From a virus, in IMG/VR virus record IMGVR_UViG_3300010316_000012, positions 1 through 47,179 of that record: a stretch of 47,179 bases of DNA. The stretch is one strand, 5' to 3'. This document shows, one piece after another, positions 2,414 through 43,075 of the stretch. Below the pieces are notes generated by a model. It ran no database searches and was not told the DNA's origin. It worked only from the letters and a program-made list of their open reading frames with translations. The position numbers and the translations under genes are program-made. The stretch's first letter is position 1; the number at the start of each line of letters is the position of its first letter.

Positions 2414-3326
2414 ACTTGACATTGAAAACCTAAAGACAAAGAGTTTGTTTGTCGCCACTCCAATGTATGGCGGAAACTGCTCTGGTATGTACACAAAGGC
2501 AACTAACGATCTATCAATGATCTGTGCTAAATACGGCATTGAACTGAAGTTTTATTACCTATTTAACGAATCTTTGATTACAAGGGCCCGCAACTATTGC
2601 GTTGATGAGTTTCTAAGGTCTGGCTGTACACACCTTATGTTTATTGACTCTGACATTGGATTCAACTACAAAGACGTGTTGCATCTAATGCAGATCACAG
2701 ACTCCGCCACAGGCATGGACATTGTGACAGGTGCTTATCCCAAGAAAACAATCTCTTGGGAGAAAGTCAAAAAAGCATCTGACATGGGATACGGTGCTGA
2801 TAATCCATTTCAACTTGAACACTTCGTGGGCGACTTCGTGTTCAACCCAGATTCTGACATCAAGTCATTCAAGCTAAACGAGCCAGTGAAAATCAAAGAA
2901 GGTGGCACTGGATTCATGATGATTCATCGTGACGTTTTTGATAAGTACGCCGAGGCCTATCCAGAACTGAAGTACAAACCAGATCACGCAAGAACTGAGC
3001 ATTTTGACGGTACTCGTGAAATCACGGCGTTCTTTGACACGGTGATTGACCCAGAAAGTAAGCGTTACCTTTCTGAGGACTACATGTTCAGCTATTATGC
3101 GCGGCGCATTGGTCTAAACGTTTGGCTCTGCCCTTGGATTCAGCTAAAGCATGTCGGCACATACACCTTTGGTGGATCGCTAAGTGCTATGGCAGCTATT
3201 CAGGCATCACCAACAGCATCAAAAGAATCTAACAAAAAAACTTACTTGACAAAGAATCAAGAACCTGCTAAAACTGATGATATGAATCGCAAACAGCGCC
3301 GCGCGCAAGAAAAAATGAGGAAGTAA
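2397..3326 (+). CDS. GT-A fold glycosyltransferase
   Basis: A 309-aa protein with a Rossmann-like start (KSLFVATPMYGG) and a metal-binding DSD motif in LMFIDSDIGF around residue 85. Downstream is an ARTEHFDGTREITAFFDT segment and a late H in LKHVGTYTFGG. This resembles Anp1/GT2-like phage glycosyltransferases. The acceptor is unknown: modified DNA base, virion protein or host surface sugar. The last ~45 residues are basic and low-complexity. The start overlaps the preceding gene by 17 nt, and a second ATG at 2403 is possible. Confidence 0.65.
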   Translation: MNMNIELDIENLKTKSLFVATPMYGGNCSGMYTKATNDLSMICAKYGIELKFYYLFNESLITRARNYCVDEFLRSGCTHLMFIDSDIGFNYKDVLHLMQITDSATGMDIVTGAYPKKTISWEKVKKASDMGYGADNPFQLEHFVGDFVFNPDSDIKSFKLNEPVKIKEGGTGFMMIHRDVFDKYAEAYPELKYKPDHARTEHFDGTREITAFFDTVIDPESKRYLSEDYMFSYYARRIGLNVWLCPWIQLKHVGTYTFGGSLSAMAAIQASPTASKESNKKTYLTKNQEPAKTDDMNRKQRRAQEKMRK

Positions 3327-3329
3327 GCA

Positions 3330-3983
3330 ATGAAGTTTAGTAATGACACGTTGACGATTTTGAAGAACTTTTCGCAGATCAATCAGAGTATCATGTTCAA
3401 GACGGGTAACAAGGTACGCACCATTCATCCACAACGAACAGTCTTGGCTGAAGCGACTATCACAGAAAACATCACACAACAAGCTGGTGTGTACGATCTT
3501 TCTCGTTTCATTGGCGTTTTGTCAATGGCCTCCGATCCTGAGATTGATTTTGGCTCTGATCGCTTTACTATCAGTAGCAGCAATGGTGGAGAGACAAGCT
3601 ATACCTACACCGCTGAGAACATGATTGTAACTCCTCCAGATAAAGAGATCAAGATCCCAAATGTTGAAGCCACAGTGTTTGTGTCGTCTCGTGTACTTGA
3701 CGAAGTGACTAAGGCAGCTAACATTCTGAATCTACCCGAAATCTCTTTCAAGGCTGAAAATGGCGTTATCCGGGTATCTGCTACAGATTCAAAAACACCG
3801 ACTTCCGATTCACATAAAGTGAAGATTCAAGAAGGAGTAGACTGCCAAGATTTTGAATTGATTGTTCAGCGTGACAATCTTCGTCTTTTGCCAGGTGACT
3901 ATGATGTGTCGCTATCCACTAGTGGCATGGCCCATTTCAAATCAGATAAGGTCCAATACTGGATCGCAGTAACATCTAACTAA
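3330..3983 (+). CDS. 45: Sliding clamp (gp45-like DNA polymerase processivity factor)
   Basis: A 217-aa protein, close to T4 gp45 (228 aa). The beginning, FSNDTLTILKNFSQINQSIMF, and the YDLSRFIGVLS and FTISSSNG segments are typical of T4-like clamps. It forms a trimeric ring loaded by gp44/62, tethers the polymerase, and in T4 also activates late transcription. Preceded by a GAGGAAG ribosome site. It starts the canonical 45-44-62-regA-43 order. Confidence 0.9.
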   Translation: MKFSNDTLTILKNFSQINQSIMFKTGNKVRTIHPQRTVLAEATITENITQQAGVYDLSRFIGVLSMASDPEIDFGSDRFTISSSNGGETSYTYTAENMIVTPPDKEIKIPNVEATVFVSSRVLDEVTKAANILNLPEISFKAENGVIRVSATDSKTPTSDSHKVKIQEGVDCQDFELIVQRDNLRLLPGDYDVSLSTSGMAHFKSDKVQYWIAVTSN

Positions 3984-34666: not shown

Positions 34667-36892
34667 ATGCTGAAAGTAGTAAATACACCAAAAGAGATTG
34701 ACACTAAATCACTCTTATCACAGACTAAGTTTTATGAGGCTTATTCTCGTTGGGACGAAAGTCTTGATCGTTATGAAACGTGGGAAGAAGCTGTTACTCG
34801 TGTGATGAACATGCACCGAGATTATTACAAAGATAAAATGACTCCTAAACTATCTCAGATGATTGATGAAGCTGAGTCTCTATACAAACTGCAATACGCA
34901 CTTGGGGCACAAAGGGCTTTACAGTTTGGAGGTGAGCAACTACTGAAACACCAAATGCGAATGTATAACTGTACCTCTTCCTATGCAGATCGCACAGCGT
35001 TTTTTCAGGAGCTTTTCTACATTCTACTTTGTGGTGCTGGCGCAGGCTTCTCTGTTCAGTATCATCATGTAGAAAAACTATCAGACATCGCAGAACGCAA
35101 AAAGCAGGCTAAGGGTTATGTCGTAGAAGATAGTATTGAAGGCTGGGCTGATGCTCTTGGTGTTCTTATGTCATCATACTTTGTTGGTGGTGGAACGTTC
35201 CCAGAGTTTGAAGGTCGTAAAGTTTACTTTGACTTGTCTCAGATTCGCCCAAGGGGTTCAGAGATTTCTGGTGGATTCAAAGCACCAGGCCCAGAACCAC
35301 TTCGTCGCGCACTTGACAAGATTGAATACCTATTACAAGGTCTCGTGCTATCTGGTGTGACACGTCTTCGCCCGATTCATGTCTATGACATTGCAATGCA
35401 CGCCGCAGATGCCGTTTTGGCTGGCGGTGTTCGTAGATCAGCAACAATTTGTCTCTTTTCACCAGACGATGAAGAGATGGCTAAAGCTAAGACAGGTAAC
35501 TGGTTTGTTGACAACCCACAGCGTGGTCGCTCAAATAACTCGGCTGTGATTGTACGTGATGAAGTGACTCGTGAACAGTTTTCTAAACTCATGGAGAGTA
35601 TCAAACAGTTTGGTGAACCTGGTTTCTACTTTGTTGATTCAAGAGATCACACCACAAACCCATGTGTTGAAATCGGTATGTTTCCACAGATTGACGGCAA
35701 GTCTGGTTGGCAGGGATGTAATCTGACTGAAATCAATGGTGGCAAGTGTACGACAAGAGAAGAGTTTTTCAAAGCATGTCGCGCTGGCGCTATCATAGGC
35801 ACCCTACAAGCTGGATACACAGACTTCAAATACCTTTCAAACACAACGAAAGAAATCTTTGATCGTGAAGCACTTCTTGGTGTTTCTATCACAGGTTGGA
35901 TGAACAATTCTGAAGTCCTATTTGATCCAGAGATTCAGCGTGAAGGCGCTGAAGTCGTCAAGGCCATAAATGAAGAAGTCGCAGAACTGATTGGTATCAA
36001 TGCAGCGGCTCGCACAACATGCGTCAAGCCGTCTGGTAACGCATCCGTACTACTTCAAACAGCGTCTGGTATTCACGCAGAACACGCACCTCGTTATCTA
36101 CGTAATGTTCAGATGAATAAAGACAGTGAAGTTGCTCAGTTGATCGCCGAAACTAATCCATACATGATTGAAGAGAGTGTTTGGTCTGCTGGTAAAACAG
36201 ACTACATCATTTCGTTCCCGATCATTTCAAAAGAAGGCTCAATCTATAAAGAAGCTATGCTAGGTAAGAGCCTACTTGAAATGGTCAAGATGGTACAACA
36301 AAACTGGGTAGAAGCTGGTACTCGTGTTGAGCGTTGTGCGGATCCAACCGTTCGTCACAATGTTTCAAATACGGTCACTGTCTTGAATCATCAGTGGAAA
36401 GAAGTTGAAGATTATGTTTTTGATAATCGTCACTCTTATGCTGGTATCTCTTTCTTGTCTGGGTCTGGTGATAAAGACTTCAACCAAGCACCATTCACAC
36501 AAGTCTTGACAGAAGATCAGATTGTTGATAAGTATGGTCGCGGTGCTCTATTTGCGGCTGGTCTTATTGTTGACACTCGTAAGGGCTTCAACGATCTTTG
36601 GGAAGCATGTTCAACAGCACAATTGCCAGAAGAGCATCGCGGAGAACTATCTGATCTACGTGCCGATTGGATTCGTCGCTTCAAAAAGTTTGCCGAATCG
36701 TACTTTGATGGCGACATGAAAGAAGCTGAGTACTGTCTCAAGGATGTGACATTGCTACATCGTTGGACAAAGATTCAGCAGAACGTGAAGCCAATTGACT
36801 TTGTGACACAACTTGAAAGTAAGCGTTACACTGACATTGACACATTAGGTGCTGCGGCCTGCCAAGGTGGACAATGTGAGATCACATTCTGA
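34667..36892 (+). CDS. nrdJ: Adenosylcobalamin-dependent ribonucleotide reductase (class II)
   Basis: A 741-aa monomeric class II RNR of the ribonucleoside-triphosphate reductase type: YNCTSSYADRTAFFQELFYILLCGAGAGFSV, AGGVRRSATICLFS, NPCVEIG (catalytic Cys) at about 330, GCNLTEING, KPSGNASVL and the C-terminal redox pair CQGGQC. It reduces ribonucleoside triphosphates using B12. T4 instead uses a class I NrdAB, so this replaces the oxygen-dependent enzyme with one needing host cobalamin. AGAGGAA ribosome site. Confidence 0.93.
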   Translation: MLKVVNTPKEIDTKSLLSQTKFYEAYSRWDESLDRYETWEEAVTRVMNMHRDYYKDKMTPKLSQMIDEAESLYKLQYALGAQRALQFGGEQLLKHQMRMYNCTSSYADRTAFFQELFYILLCGAGAGFSVQYHHVEKLSDIAERKKQAKGYVVEDSIEGWADALGVLMSSYFVGGGTFPEFEGRKVYFDLSQIRPRGSEISGGFKAPGPEPLRRALDKIEYLLQGLVLSGVTRLRPIHVYDIAMHAADAVLAGGVRRSATICLFSPDDEEMAKAKTGNWFVDNPQRGRSNNSAVIVRDEVTREQFSKLMESIKQFGEPGFYFVDSRDHTTNPCVEIGMFPQIDGKSGWQGCNLTEINGGKCTTREEFFKACRAGAIIGTLQAGYTDFKYLSNTTKEIFDREALLGVSITGWMNNSEVLFDPEIQREGAEVVKAINEEVAELIGINAAARTTCVKPSGNASVLLQTASGIHAEHAPRYLRNVQMNKDSEVAQLIAETNPYMIEESVWSAGKTDYIISFPIISKEGSIYKEAMLGKSLLEMVKMVQQNWVEAGTRVERCADPTVRHNVSNTVTVLNHQWKEVEDYVFDNRHSYAGISFLSGSGDKDFNQAPFTQVLTEDQIVDKYGRGALFAAGLIVDTRKGFNDLWEACSTAQLPEEHRGELSDLRADWIRRFKKFAESYFDGDMKEAEYCLKDVTLLHRWTKIQQNVKPIDFVTQLESKRYTDIDTLGAAACQGGQCEITF

Positions 36893-36981
36893 TGAATAAG
36901 TGGCAACAAGCATACATGGACACGGCGGAGCGCTTCGGCGCTCTGTCTACTTATGAAATAAAATTTCTTCTGTATAAATAA
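36892..36981 (+). pseudogene. Abandoned 5' stub of dCMP deaminase gene
   Basis: ATG 36892 overlaps the nrdJ stop as TGATG and reads MNKWQQAYMDTAERFGALS before diverging to a stop at 36979. KWQxxYMDTAxRxxxLS matches the beginning of the intact deaminase at 37686, but the DNA differs in most third positions. This is the old start of the gene, cut off by the HNH gene inserted downstream. A GAGCGC-TTCG-GCGCTC hairpin lies inside it. Confidence 0.65.
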
Positions 36982-37000
36982 AAAGTGATTCATACAGAAG
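36967..37000 (+). promoter_or_regulatory. Late promoter inside an inverted repeat before HNH gene
   Basis: TATAAATA at 36973-36980 overlaps the left arm of a perfect 9-bp inverted repeat, CTTCTGTAT (36967-36975) and ATACAGAAG (36992-37000). The right arm is a few bases before the AGGAA ribosome site of the 37016 gene. Read-through RNA can fold here; RNA started at the late promoter lacks the left arm. Confidence 0.65.
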
Positions 37001-37015
37001 CAAAATAGGAATAAA

Positions 37016-37693
37016 ATGATACATAGACATCATATAATACCCAAACATATGGGTGGCACAGACGATCCAGATAACATTATTGAGTTGACAGTAGAAGAAC
37101 ATGCACTGGCGCATTTGGAGTTATATGAGAAATATGGAAAAAAGGAAGACCTTTGCGCATATTATATGCTATCTGGAAAAAATAAAGAACCTGAGTTTGT
37201 TCAAGCCCGCGCGTCTTTGGGTGGCAAGGCTTCTTACAAGAAGAGAATTTCTAAAGGTATAGACCACTTACCTTTTTTTGGTTCCGATTTGACAGATGAA
37301 AAAAAGTTTGAGATAAGTTCATCTGGTGGGAAGGTTCAGGGTAAGATAAACGCCGAAAGCGGTCATATGAAAAAAATACAAAAACTTGGTGATAAAGTAA
37401 AAAACGGTAGATTGGGTGGGGAAGCAACAATACGATCCGGAAAGGGCGCGTTTGGAGACCCAGAACAGCGTGTAAAAGTTGCGAAATTAGGTGGGAAGGT
37501 TCAGGGTAAGATAAACGCCGAAAGCGACCATCTAAAAAACATATCTAAGGATTATTGGAATAAAGTAAAGAGCGGAGAAATAGAAAGACCTAAGAGAACT
37601 TGGTACACCGACGGTAGAGAAAGTGTGTTAGTAAAAGAGTGTGATACTCCACCTGATGGATTTTATAAAGGAAGAAAAATAAAGAATGTGTAA
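37016..37693 (+). CDS. HNH homing endonuclease inserted at the dCMP deaminase gene
   Basis: A 225-aa protein. The N-terminal RHHIIPKHMGGTDDPDNIIELTVEEHALAH is an HNH nuclease of the type found in phage homing genes. The rest is a NUMOD-like DNA-binding region including a duplicated GGKVQGKINAES unit, and ends RTWYTDGRESVLV. It overlaps the intact deaminase by 8 nt. Its codons are AT-rich compared with neighbours. Confidence 0.85.
   Translation: MIHRHHIIPKHMGGTDDPDNIIELTVEEHALAHLELYEKYGKKEDLCAYYMLSGKNKEPEFVQARASLGGKASYKKRISKGIDHLPFFGSDLTDEKKFEISSSGGKVQGKINAESGHMKKIQKLGDKVKNGRLGGEATIRSGKGAFGDPEQRVKVAKLGGKVQGKINAESDHLKNISKDYWNKVKSGEIERPKRTWYTDGRESVLVKECDTPPDGFYKGRKIKNV
37325..37526 (+). repeat. 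37-bp direct repeat within the HNH gene
   Basis: Positions 37325-37361 and 37490-37526 are identical (37 bp, 165 bp apart). They encode GGKVQGKINAES, a NUMOD-type DNA-binding unit. Identity at the third codon positions shows recent duplication or conversion. Confidence 0.9.
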
Positions 37694-38096
37694 ATCAAGT
37701 AAGTGGCAAGAATTGTATATGGATACCGCAGTTCGCATTAGTCAATTATCTTCTGCCAAGAGACTTCAAGTCGGTGCTATTGCAGTCAAAAATAATCGTA
37801 TTATATCAATCGGTTATAACGGCACGCCTTCCGGTTGGAATAATGAGTGTGAAGACGAAAACTTCAAAACTAAGTCAGAAGTGATACATGCCGAGCAAAA
37901 TTTGGTGGCGAAAATCGCATCTTCTCACGAAAGCGGTAAAGGGGCTGAGATTTACATCACACATTCACCTTGTATGAACTGCGCTAAGTTGATTTATGCG
38001 TCTGGTATTGCCAAAGTTTACTATAAGCATAAATACCGATCAGAAGACGGAATACACTTTTTAGAGAAGTGTGGATTGGAGGTAAAACAACTATGA
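37686..38096 (+). CDS. cd: dCMP deaminase
   Basis: A 136-aa deaminase with zinc and catalytic residues H68-A-E70 (IHAEQN) and C96, C99 (PCMNC), plus KRLQVGAIAVKNNRI and the GYNGTPSGW loop. It converts dCMP to dUMP for thymidylate synthase. It is shorter than T4 Cd (193 aa) but complete in motifs. Its first codons are a regenerated copy, since a diverged stub of the same beginning lies upstream of the inserted HNH gene. Confidence 0.92.
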   Translation: MCKSSKWQELYMDTAVRISQLSSAKRLQVGAIAVKNNRIISIGYNGTPSGWNNECEDENFKTKSEVIHAEQNLVAKIASSHESGKGAEIYITHSPCMNCAKLIYASGIAKVYYKHKYRSEDGIHFLEKCGLEVKQL

Positions 38097-38266
38097 GCTA
38101 CAAATACGAAGAAACGTGCCCCTATTGCGACACAGAATACTCTGTTGAGTTTGAAAGCGAAGACGACATTCTTGCGAACTGCCCAGCCTGCGGTGAACAA
38201 GTCCCAGAGTTTGATGACGATGATGATGAAATGATGATTGACGAAGACGAGGAATGGGAAGAATAA
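38093..38266 (+). CDS. Small acidic zinc-ribbon protein
   Basis: A 57-aa protein from ATG 38093 (GGAGG upstream, ATGA overlap with the deaminase stop). CPYC and CPAC pairs form one zinc ribbon, followed by an Asp/Glu-only tail. Such proteins often bind polymerase or ribosomal partners. Role unknown. Confidence 0.65.
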   Translation: MSYKYEETCPYCDTEYSVEFESEDDILANCPACGEQVPEFDDDDDEMMIDEDEEWEE

Positions 38267-38289
38267 ATACATGAAACTATGAGGGTTTC

Positions 38290-38712
38290 ATGTGGTATTA
38301 TAATGGTAAAGAGTTTACTTCTGAAATGATCGGTGATTATGTGGGCTTTGTCTATGTGATCACCGATTTGAGTAATGATAAGAAATACGTTGGTAAAAAA
38401 CTTTTCAAGTCAAAAAGAAGACTACCTCCACTAAAAGGTAAGACCCGAAAGAGAACTGTCGTCAAAGAAAGTGACTGGCAGGACTACTTCGGGTCTTCTG
38501 ATTTGGTGAAGACTCTTGTTGAAGAGCATGGCCGCGACAACTTCCACAGAGAAATACTACACCTTTGTATGTCTAAGGGCGAACTGTCCTATATGGAAAC
38601 ATATGAAATCCTAATCAGACATGCTATAATCAAAGACGAATATTATAATGCTTTCGTTGGATGTAAAATTCATAAAAATCATGTTCCTAAAGAAACTATT
38701 GAGCGTTTTTGA
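38290..38712 (+). CDS. GIY-YIG-like endonuclease domain protein
   Basis: A 140-aa protein. GFVYVITDLSNDKKYVGKKLF supplies the GIY and YIG elements, followed by a long basic KSKRRLPPLKGKTRKR insert, DWQDYFGSS, and E in YMETYEILIRHA. Related short nucleases are found in marine T4-like phages. AATAAATA lies 23 nt before the start. It may be a homing enzyme or a repair-like nuclease. Confidence 0.7.
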   Translation: MWYYNGKEFTSEMIGDYVGFVYVITDLSNDKKYVGKKLFKSKRRLPPLKGKTRKRTVVKESDWQDYFGSSDLVKTLVEEHGRDNFHREILHLCMSKGELSYMETYEILIRHAIIKDEYYNAFVGCKIHKNHVPKETIERF

Positions 38713-41740: not shown

Positions 41741-42211
41741 TCAAACTTTCCAGTTCAACTTTGCTCCTTTTTTTCGGTTTTCTGTGATTGTAAGGTATTG
41801 TAAGTTGTCCTGATGGTGTAAACCACCTTTAGAGATAGGTATTATGTGGTCTACTTCATATCCTTCTGGACAGTTTAGATAAATCTTCTTTATCTTATTT
41901 AGGTCGGCATCTTTCGGGGTTTGATTCTTCTTTTTAGTGTAGTATGACATAAAATAAAACGCTTGAAGTTTTTTTCTCTCTTCTTCTGTTCTCAATACTT
42001 TTACAGACTCGCCAAAGCAAGCTCTAGAGCAAAACTTTCTTTTTGATAATTTTGTTTTTTTGCCACATTGTTGACAATCTGTAGGTTGGTTTCCGTTTCT
42101 GCGAACACCTTTATTGTTGAATGAAGCAGAGCATGATCTTGAACAAAACTTTTTATTTTTTGTCTCTTTACAACAGTTTAGACATGTGTTATAAATAGAT
42201 TTACTGGACAT
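41741..42211 (-). CDS. HNH homing endonuclease with two zinc fingers (minus strand)
   Basis: A 156-aa protein from minus-strand ATG 42211 behind AGGAG; the frame extends to 42253. Two CxxC…CxxxC fingers (CLNCCKETKNKKFCSRSC and CQQCGKKTKLSKRKFCSRAC) precede a classical HNH: YEVDHIIPISKGGLHHQDNLQYLT. It lies between two damaged tRNA-like sequences and on the opposite strand, so it is an insertion in the tRNA array. Confidence 0.85.
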   Translation of the reverse strand: MSSKSIYNTCLNCCKETKNKKFCSRSCSASFNNKGVRRNGNQPTDCQQCGKKTKLSKRKFCSRACFGESVKVLRTEEERKKLQAFYFMSYYTKKKNQTPKDADLNKIKKIYLNCPEGYEVDHIIPISKGGLHHQDNLQYLTITENRKKGAKLNWKV

Positions 42212-42270
42212 TATAGGCTCCTTTGCTTGTCTAGAGTAGTTGGGGACTGCCATCCCGTGAACTACAACTC

Positions 42271-42278
42271 TATTTATA
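42271..42278 (-). promoter_or_regulatory. Minus-strand T4-type late promoter of the HNH gene
   Basis: TATTTATA on + is TATAAATA on the minus strand, 60 nt upstream of the HNH start. Confidence 0.7.
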
Positions 42279-42289
42279 CAAAATAAAAT

Positions 42290-42637: not shown

Positions 42638-43075
42638 ATGTTAGTAGAAAACTATTTAGCTATAGAGCAAAAGCAAAGACAATCTCATTTAGATTTGAAC
42701 GATGAGTGTAAAGAAAGAGGTGGAAATAGCACTAATCATCGAGGGGTTCTTGCGCAATATTTAGATACTCAAATTTACGGAAGACCTGCTGATTTATGCC
42801 ATGCTTGCCATAACGATAAATGTTCTAATCCTAAACATCTATATTGGGGAACACGAAAAGAGAATGTTCAAGATGCTAGAGATAACGGGACTTTTAAAAC
42901 ACCATTTGAAAGAAGAGTGGAAAAATATGGTTATGAAGAGGCGTGTCGCATGAACGCCAGAGGCAATAAGTCAGCGGGTGGTAAGGCTAATAAGGGTAAG
43001 ATAAAATCTACTGAACATCGTAATAAGATTAGTGAAAGTTTAAGCGGGCGTAATCCAATTGGTAGAGATAGTTGA
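42638..43075 (+). CDS. HNH homing endonuclease inserted in a tRNA-Leu gene
   Basis: A 145-aa protein with LCHACHNDKCSNPKHLYWGTRKENVQDARDNG, an HNH_3-type homing nuclease core (His, zinc Cys pairs, Asn), and a basic NUMOD-type tail (GNKSAGGKANKGKIKSTEHRNKISESLSGR). Its last codons (NPIGRDS) are read from the acceptor and D-loop sequence of the downstream tRNA, so the gene and the tRNA overlap by 32 nt. Confidence 0.85.
   Translation: MLVENYLAIEQKQRQSHLDLNDECKERGGNSTNHRGVLAQYLDTQIYGRPADLCHACHNDKCSNPKHLYWGTRKENVQDARDNGTFKTPFERRVEKYGYEEACRMNARGNKSAGGKANKGKIKSTEHRNKISESLSGRNPIGRDS

Follow-up and report, generated by a model that had tools for sequence, protein, structure and literature searches.

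In a virus record of 47,179 bases, analysed at its full length (the window), the start of the dCMP deaminase gene (cd) occurs twice: as a truncated stub behind the ribonucleotide reductase gene nrdJ and, beyond an HNH endonuclease gene, at the head of a complete cd. This arrangement raises the question of how an endonuclease gene can settle in a coding gene that nevertheless stays whole. A first-pass annotation had proposed that a homing endonuclease cut off the original start of cd and brought its own allele of the 5′ end, thereby sparing the host gene and regenerating its target. Here we argue that the HNH gene likely encodes a free-standing homing endonuclease that is specific for phage cd, carries half of cd with it and probably represses itself through a mimic of its target site.

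Architecture of the locus

The features of the locus are listed in Table 1. The nrdJ product of the window is 98–99% identical in amino acids to those of two relatives, L001 and L002, and the gene ends at 36892 in TGATG, the ATG of which opens the stub ORF. The complete cd overlaps the HNH ORF by 8 nt, and its product matches Pfam dCMP_cyt_deam_1 (E 7e-23) and the PHROG ‘dCMP deaminase’ (1e-50). The stub and the complete copy have 11 of 18 residues but only 34 of 54 nt in common, which bears out the claim that the HNH gene is followed by a complete cd encoding a similar protein in different DNA.

Table 1. Features of the nrdJ–cd region, in positions of the window
Feature	Position	Strand	Basis or remark
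nrdJ, class II ribonucleotide reductase, left neighbour	34667–36892	+	family searches
Stub ORF	36892–36981	+	reads MNKWQQAYMDTAERFGALST, then unrelated YEIKFLLYK*; stop 36979–36981
Native 5′ cd stub, codons 1–20, cut off at ...LST	36892–36951	+	identical to L001 cd
Hairpin CTTCTGTAT...ATACAGAAG	36967–37002	+	z −2.2; covers late-promoter box and mimic
TATAAATA, T4-type late-promoter-like box	36973–36980	+	enriched in window; recurs before relatives
Target-site mimic/putative operator GTGATTCATACAGAAGCA	36985–37002	+	reads V-I-H-T-E-A; matrix match
HNH endonuclease gene	37016–37693	+	225 aa; Pfam, PHROG
Complete cd (dCMP deaminase)	37686–38096	+	136 aa; Pfam, PHROG
Imported, recoded 5′ part of cd, codons 1 to ~87, HAE site included	37686–37945	+	differences from L001
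41-nt patch identical to L001, within imported tract	37833–37873	+	comparison with L001
Recoded HAE site of linked cd, GTGATACATGCCGAGCAA, without CAYGCNGARG	37881–37898	+	predicted cleavage-resistant
Native 3′ part of cd with P-C-x-x-C zinc ligands	37946–38096	+	1 difference from L001, 0 from L002

The TATAAATA box occurs 10 times in the window against 2.3 expected, a count reached in 0 of 100 shuffles, and is also found ahead of many relatives. A late transcript would lack the left arm of the hairpin, recalling the translational switch of I-TevI; this function is an inference. Downstream of cd lies a segE-like GIY-YIG gene (38290–38712), and in L002 a 488-aa ORF (L002:4623–6089) is inserted between a zinc-ribbon ORF and segE. 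Elsewhere in the window, a promoter region at 42186–42282 is about 85% identical to that of an HNH gene in L002 and lies beside a minus-strand ORF (41741–42253) with the HNH-like motif VDHIIPISKGG; another HNH-like ORF occupies 42638–43075.

The HNH protein of the window matches the PHROG ‘homing endonuclease’ at 6e-18 and Pfam HNH at E 7e-4, with a score of 20.1 that falls just below the curated cut-off of 21.4; all 17 family members match Pfam HNH at E < 0.01 (best 1.3e-5). Its conserved N-terminal HNH region is followed by GGK-QGK-NAESGH repeats, which we infer to be DNA-binding. The gene is an ORF in its own right: it has a separate late-promoter box, start codon and stop codon. A group I intron was considered and rejected, with no match to it or to any other Rfam family in 36500–38700, and splicing is not needed because cd codons 1–20 are duplicated. 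In its domains, its position outside any self-splicing intron or intein and its presence/absence polymorphism (see below), the gene conforms to a free-standing phage mob-type HNH homing endonuclease. Among annotated phage genomes there was no direct DNA relative of nrdJ, and only the HNH domain and the neighbouring segE were matched; in two annotated cyanophages the HNH domain lies in contexts other than cd. A scan of bacterial genomes with an HNH profile gave a single partial, uninformative match.

Uninterrupted relatives identify the native start

A protein search of IMG/VR with cd yielded L001, in which nrdJ is 98.3% identical to that of the window and is followed directly by cd, with the same TGATG overlap and no HNH gene between. 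The stub is identical to the start of L001 cd in 60 of 60 nt, so its resemblance to cd is not due to chance. The match ends at 36952, the left boundary of the insertion, where L001 goes on as GCTAAGAGACTTCAAGTCGG. Three more uninterrupted nrdJ–cd junctions (L191, L195 and L196) likewise have stub-like cd starts, with protein scores of 75, 68 and 68 to the stub versus 46, 39 and 39 to the copy at 37686. Because uninterrupted cd genes start like the stub and not like the 37686 copy, the stub is the native start and the 37686 copy the newcomer; the claim that the original start, in TGATG overlap with nrdJ, had been cut off thus held. The insertion is polymorphic among close relatives, the HNH gene being present in the window and absent from L001.

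In L002, a different HNH gene lies on the opposite strand (3317–3913, minus) between nrdJ and an intact cd of the stub type. Its stop codon and that of nrdJ overlap (TTCTAG), and nrdJ ends in different codons, which may mean that this HNH gene replaced the 3′ end of nrdJ.

A foreign 5′ half in a native gene

Of 58 differences between the cd genes of the window and L001, 57 fall in the 245 nt that end at 37945 and 1 in the following 148 nt, which puts a breakpoint at 37946 (maximum chi-square 31.9, permutation p 0.0005). Codons 6–55 differ from L001 in 16 synonymous and 10 residue-altering codons; for codons 91–136 the counts are 1 and 0, respectively. The many synonymous changes mark the recoded part as a diverged functional allele rather than a product of decay and, with the first ~87 codons recoded and the rest native-like, the insertion brought in a foreign 5′ allele. 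The proposal that the element carried its own 5′ allele is supported, with an imported tract of about 260 nt that extends beyond the first 20 or so codons. The 41-nt patch of identity within it might reflect patchy conversion or sequence shared with the donor. No donor was found, in that the exact pattern of the recoded start occurred in no other contig.

Recurrence in two mirror-image layouts

Beyond what the first-pass annotation had proposed, the window is one case of a recurrent family that includes a mirror-image 3′ version. Every full-length HNH relative found adjoins cd, the sole exception being the distant L147 (37% identical), where the search gave no cd match. In the HNH–cd layout (the window, L067, L068 and L080–L084) the HNH gene brings the 5′ half of cd; in the cd–HNH layout (L066, L069–L079, L085, L086, L088, L105, L146, L168 and L179) it brings the 3′ half. 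Remnants of a second cd are always partial and occur across the HNH gene from the complete copy, as native 5′ stubs in the first layout (the window and L067) and native 3′ fragments in the second (L070, L073 and L074). L066, L069, L075 and others have no recognizable cd remnant. Flank matches in L089, L102 and L106 were of low complexity and were discarded as chance.

Among loci of the cd–HNH layout, HNH distances follow those of the 3′ half of cd (r 0.61, p < 0.0005), with no such correlation for the 5′ half (r 0.19, p 0.22). In the HNH–cd layout, the correlation is 0.86 with the 5′ half and 0.63 with the 3′ half, a comparison limited by its 7 loci and by the fact that both halves correlate with HNH. 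HNH divergence thus correlates best with the adjoining half of cd, indicating that this half travels with the HNH gene.

Two other explanations bear on these data. Ordinary recombination or duplication of cd between phages might have left the HNH gene as a passive hitchhiker between two copies; recombination within cd does occur without an intervening HNH gene, as L001 and L002 differ by an inserted loop. However, full-length HNH relatives adjoin cd on either side and have a target-site mimic at their promoter (see below), and the remnants are consistently partial and on the far side, which makes this explanation highly improbable. A one-sided accident is a more serious possibility: an HNH gene upstream of cd in another phage would have entered by homologous recombination through cd on the right, with illegitimate end joining on the left, leaving the stub as mere debris, with no repeatable cassette. 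In its favour, T4 td homing with a single homologous exon leads to illegitimate repair, with microhomology and resection (PMC2988022), the left junction in the window is abrupt at codon 20 with little homology, and remnant ends differ between loci. Against it, recurrence in two layouts and the correlation between HNH and the adjacent half show that the cd half regularly travels along. Such an accident could be one entry route of the cassette rather than an alternative to it.

A comparable gene order was seen elsewhere. In L129–L131 and L151, a complete thermonuclease-like (SNase) gene is followed by an HNH gene and then a 3′ SNase remnant, as in L130:1822–2870, a 3′ version with another target gene and another HNH protein. 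A mimic search in this thermonuclease-linked HNH family gave nothing convincing.

A mimic of the presumed target site

The cd-linked HNH genes are preceded, within 80 bp, by an 18-bp sequence that copies the cd codons for V-[IL]-H-A-E-A; where a TATAAATA box exists, the copy lies beside it. Scored with a weight matrix made solely from HNH-free cd genes, this mimic is present upstream of 23 of 23 cd-linked HNH genes (each p ≤ 0.008 versus dinucleotide shuffles); all 51 unlinked HNH relatives lack a match of comparable strength, the best reaching 8.2 bits. Linked mimics have a median of 16 bits (linked versus unlinked, Mann–Whitney p 4.5e-12), the weakest being that of L085 (6.9 bits). The window mimic scores 18.0 bits (p 0.002) and, as judged by eye, shares 12 of 18 positions with the L001 site. 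When 2.9 million contigs were scanned for a mimic together with an HNH start, all 12 matches adjoined cd, two of them new; the same number scanned for an inverted mimic with a promoter box gave four matches, all of them already known HNH–cd loci.

The HAE-like sequence at the promoter may be no operator but the leftover left half of an ancestral insertion site. The case of L070 fits this view, since its mimic (VLHAEA) and its remnant downstream (NSLAEL...) read as halves of one native HAEA-N site. However, although the mimic is forward in the window and in the cd–HNH layout, in L068 and L080–L084 it is inverted relative to HNH and cd and lies before the box, on the other side of TATAAATA. Its occurrence in two orientations argues against a mere relic, as does similarity that is limited to about 18 bp and kept in highly diverged loci.

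The core site CAYGCNGARG is absent from the linked cd alleles (0 of 20) and present in 14 of 19 distinct HNH-free alleles, including that of L001, the nearest uninterrupted relative of the window. In the linked alleles, the residue after HAE is Q, R, M or I, or the motif itself reads HSE. A Fisher p of 8e-7 overstates the association, because a tree-based control left at most five independent pairs, never in the opposite direction and not significant. The claim that insertion spares the gene held, with one refinement: the gene is restored, but its presumed target site is not.

The 5′ stubs of cd end upstream of the HAE site and the 3′ fragments begin downstream of it. Together with the mimic and the absence of the site from linked alleles, these ends point to the catalytic HAE codons as the likely homing site. 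In the window, the stub ends at codon 20, which leaves some 45 codons between it and the proposed site downstream, a distance that obliges the model to assume considerable resection. Cleavage and the exact position of the cut are inferred from sequence alone.

In another HNH group (L148, L155, L159 and others), the interval from TATAAATA to the HNH start contains a conserved sequence, gtgtatcgcgagagtaccagtctccatacactctaga in L159, which might be the group's own operator or site mimic.

Proposed mechanism

We propose that the HNH protein probably makes a cut or nick in cd, in or close to the codons for the zinc-binding, catalytic H-A-E motif, and that the mobile unit comprises the HNH gene plus whichever half of a foreign, recoded cd allele lies next to it. 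Having no target site, the donor half is expected to resist cutting. Repair of the break would swap the site-bearing part of the recipient for the donor half and leave a cut-off native end, a 5′ stub in the HNH–cd layout or a 3′ fragment in the cd–HNH layout. The left junction could arise either by illegitimate joining or through a stub in the donor that provides homology. As cd stays whole, insertion should cost little. Through the mimic beside its late promoter, the HNH gene is probably repressed by its own product, by analogy with I-TevI and without binding data; resistance and mobility in crosses are likewise inferences. We lean, with reservations, towards a bolder reading: a family of phage homing elements with a cut-resistant target half, mirror forms, HAE-anchored recognition and self-repression, with at least one further target, a thermonuclease-like gene, that a related HNH protein uses in the same way.

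The locus shows how a free-standing endonuclease can enter a coding gene and leave it whole while dispensing with both intron and intein. For the whole HNH family, a target site and a resistance mechanism can be predicted from sequence alone. One consequence is that phage genes for nucleotide metabolism have their 5′ or 3′ halves reshuffled by elements of this kind.

Relation to known systems

In fungal mitochondria, mobile ORFs form gene hybrids in atp6 of Allomyces and in atp6, atp9, cox2 and nad3 of Glomus (PMC3630166). Like the cd element, they combine an endonuclease ORF with a foreign, functional end of the target, leave a native remnant and keep the gene whole, and the imported part differs strongly in DNA and less in protein. 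The fungal ORFs bring 3′ ends and encode LAGLIDADG or GIY-YIG enzymes, whereas the cd element is found in phages, encodes an HNH enzyme and brings either end: the window imports the amino-terminal half and so does not meet the Allomyces/Glomus pattern of carboxy-terminal import, which its cd–HNH relatives show. The predicted target site and the promoter mimic are also features of the cd element and not of the fungal description. In the literature searched, keeping a split target whole in this manner is known only from fungal mitochondria. We consider that the cd element works like the mitochondrial hybrids, without classing it as one of them.

With the seg and mob genes of T4-like phages, the cd element has in common an intergenic, intronless endonuclease gene that adjoins its target, and co-conversion of the flanks; its HNH catalytic domain is as in mobA–mobE (PMC2988022). 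T4-type examples leave the target intact or split, as Aeh1 mobE does nrdA (PMC2988022), and none that we found in that review takes half of the target along and leaves a remnant behind. A search for papers on free-standing endonucleases of phages, associated with remnants or with duplication of gene parts, returned none that describes the arrangement, as judged by titles and abstracts. One-sided homing of the td intron in T4 yields junctions of the stub kind from homology on a single side (PMC2988022), in a laboratory construct; the cd case is natural and recurrent. At the I-TevI late promoter, a homing-site-like sequence with 15/20 identity overlaps or abuts the promoter, and the enzyme is an autorepressor (PMC2988022). 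The HNH promoters described here also carry such a sequence, for a homing site that is itself inferred. I-TevI is an intron-encoded GIY-YIG enzyme, whereas the cd-linked genes are free-standing HNH genes with mimics in either orientation, and their repression is inferred. The 5′ form is described in neither PMC3630166 nor PMC2988022, and the cd element as a whole combines fungal and T4-type features in phages.
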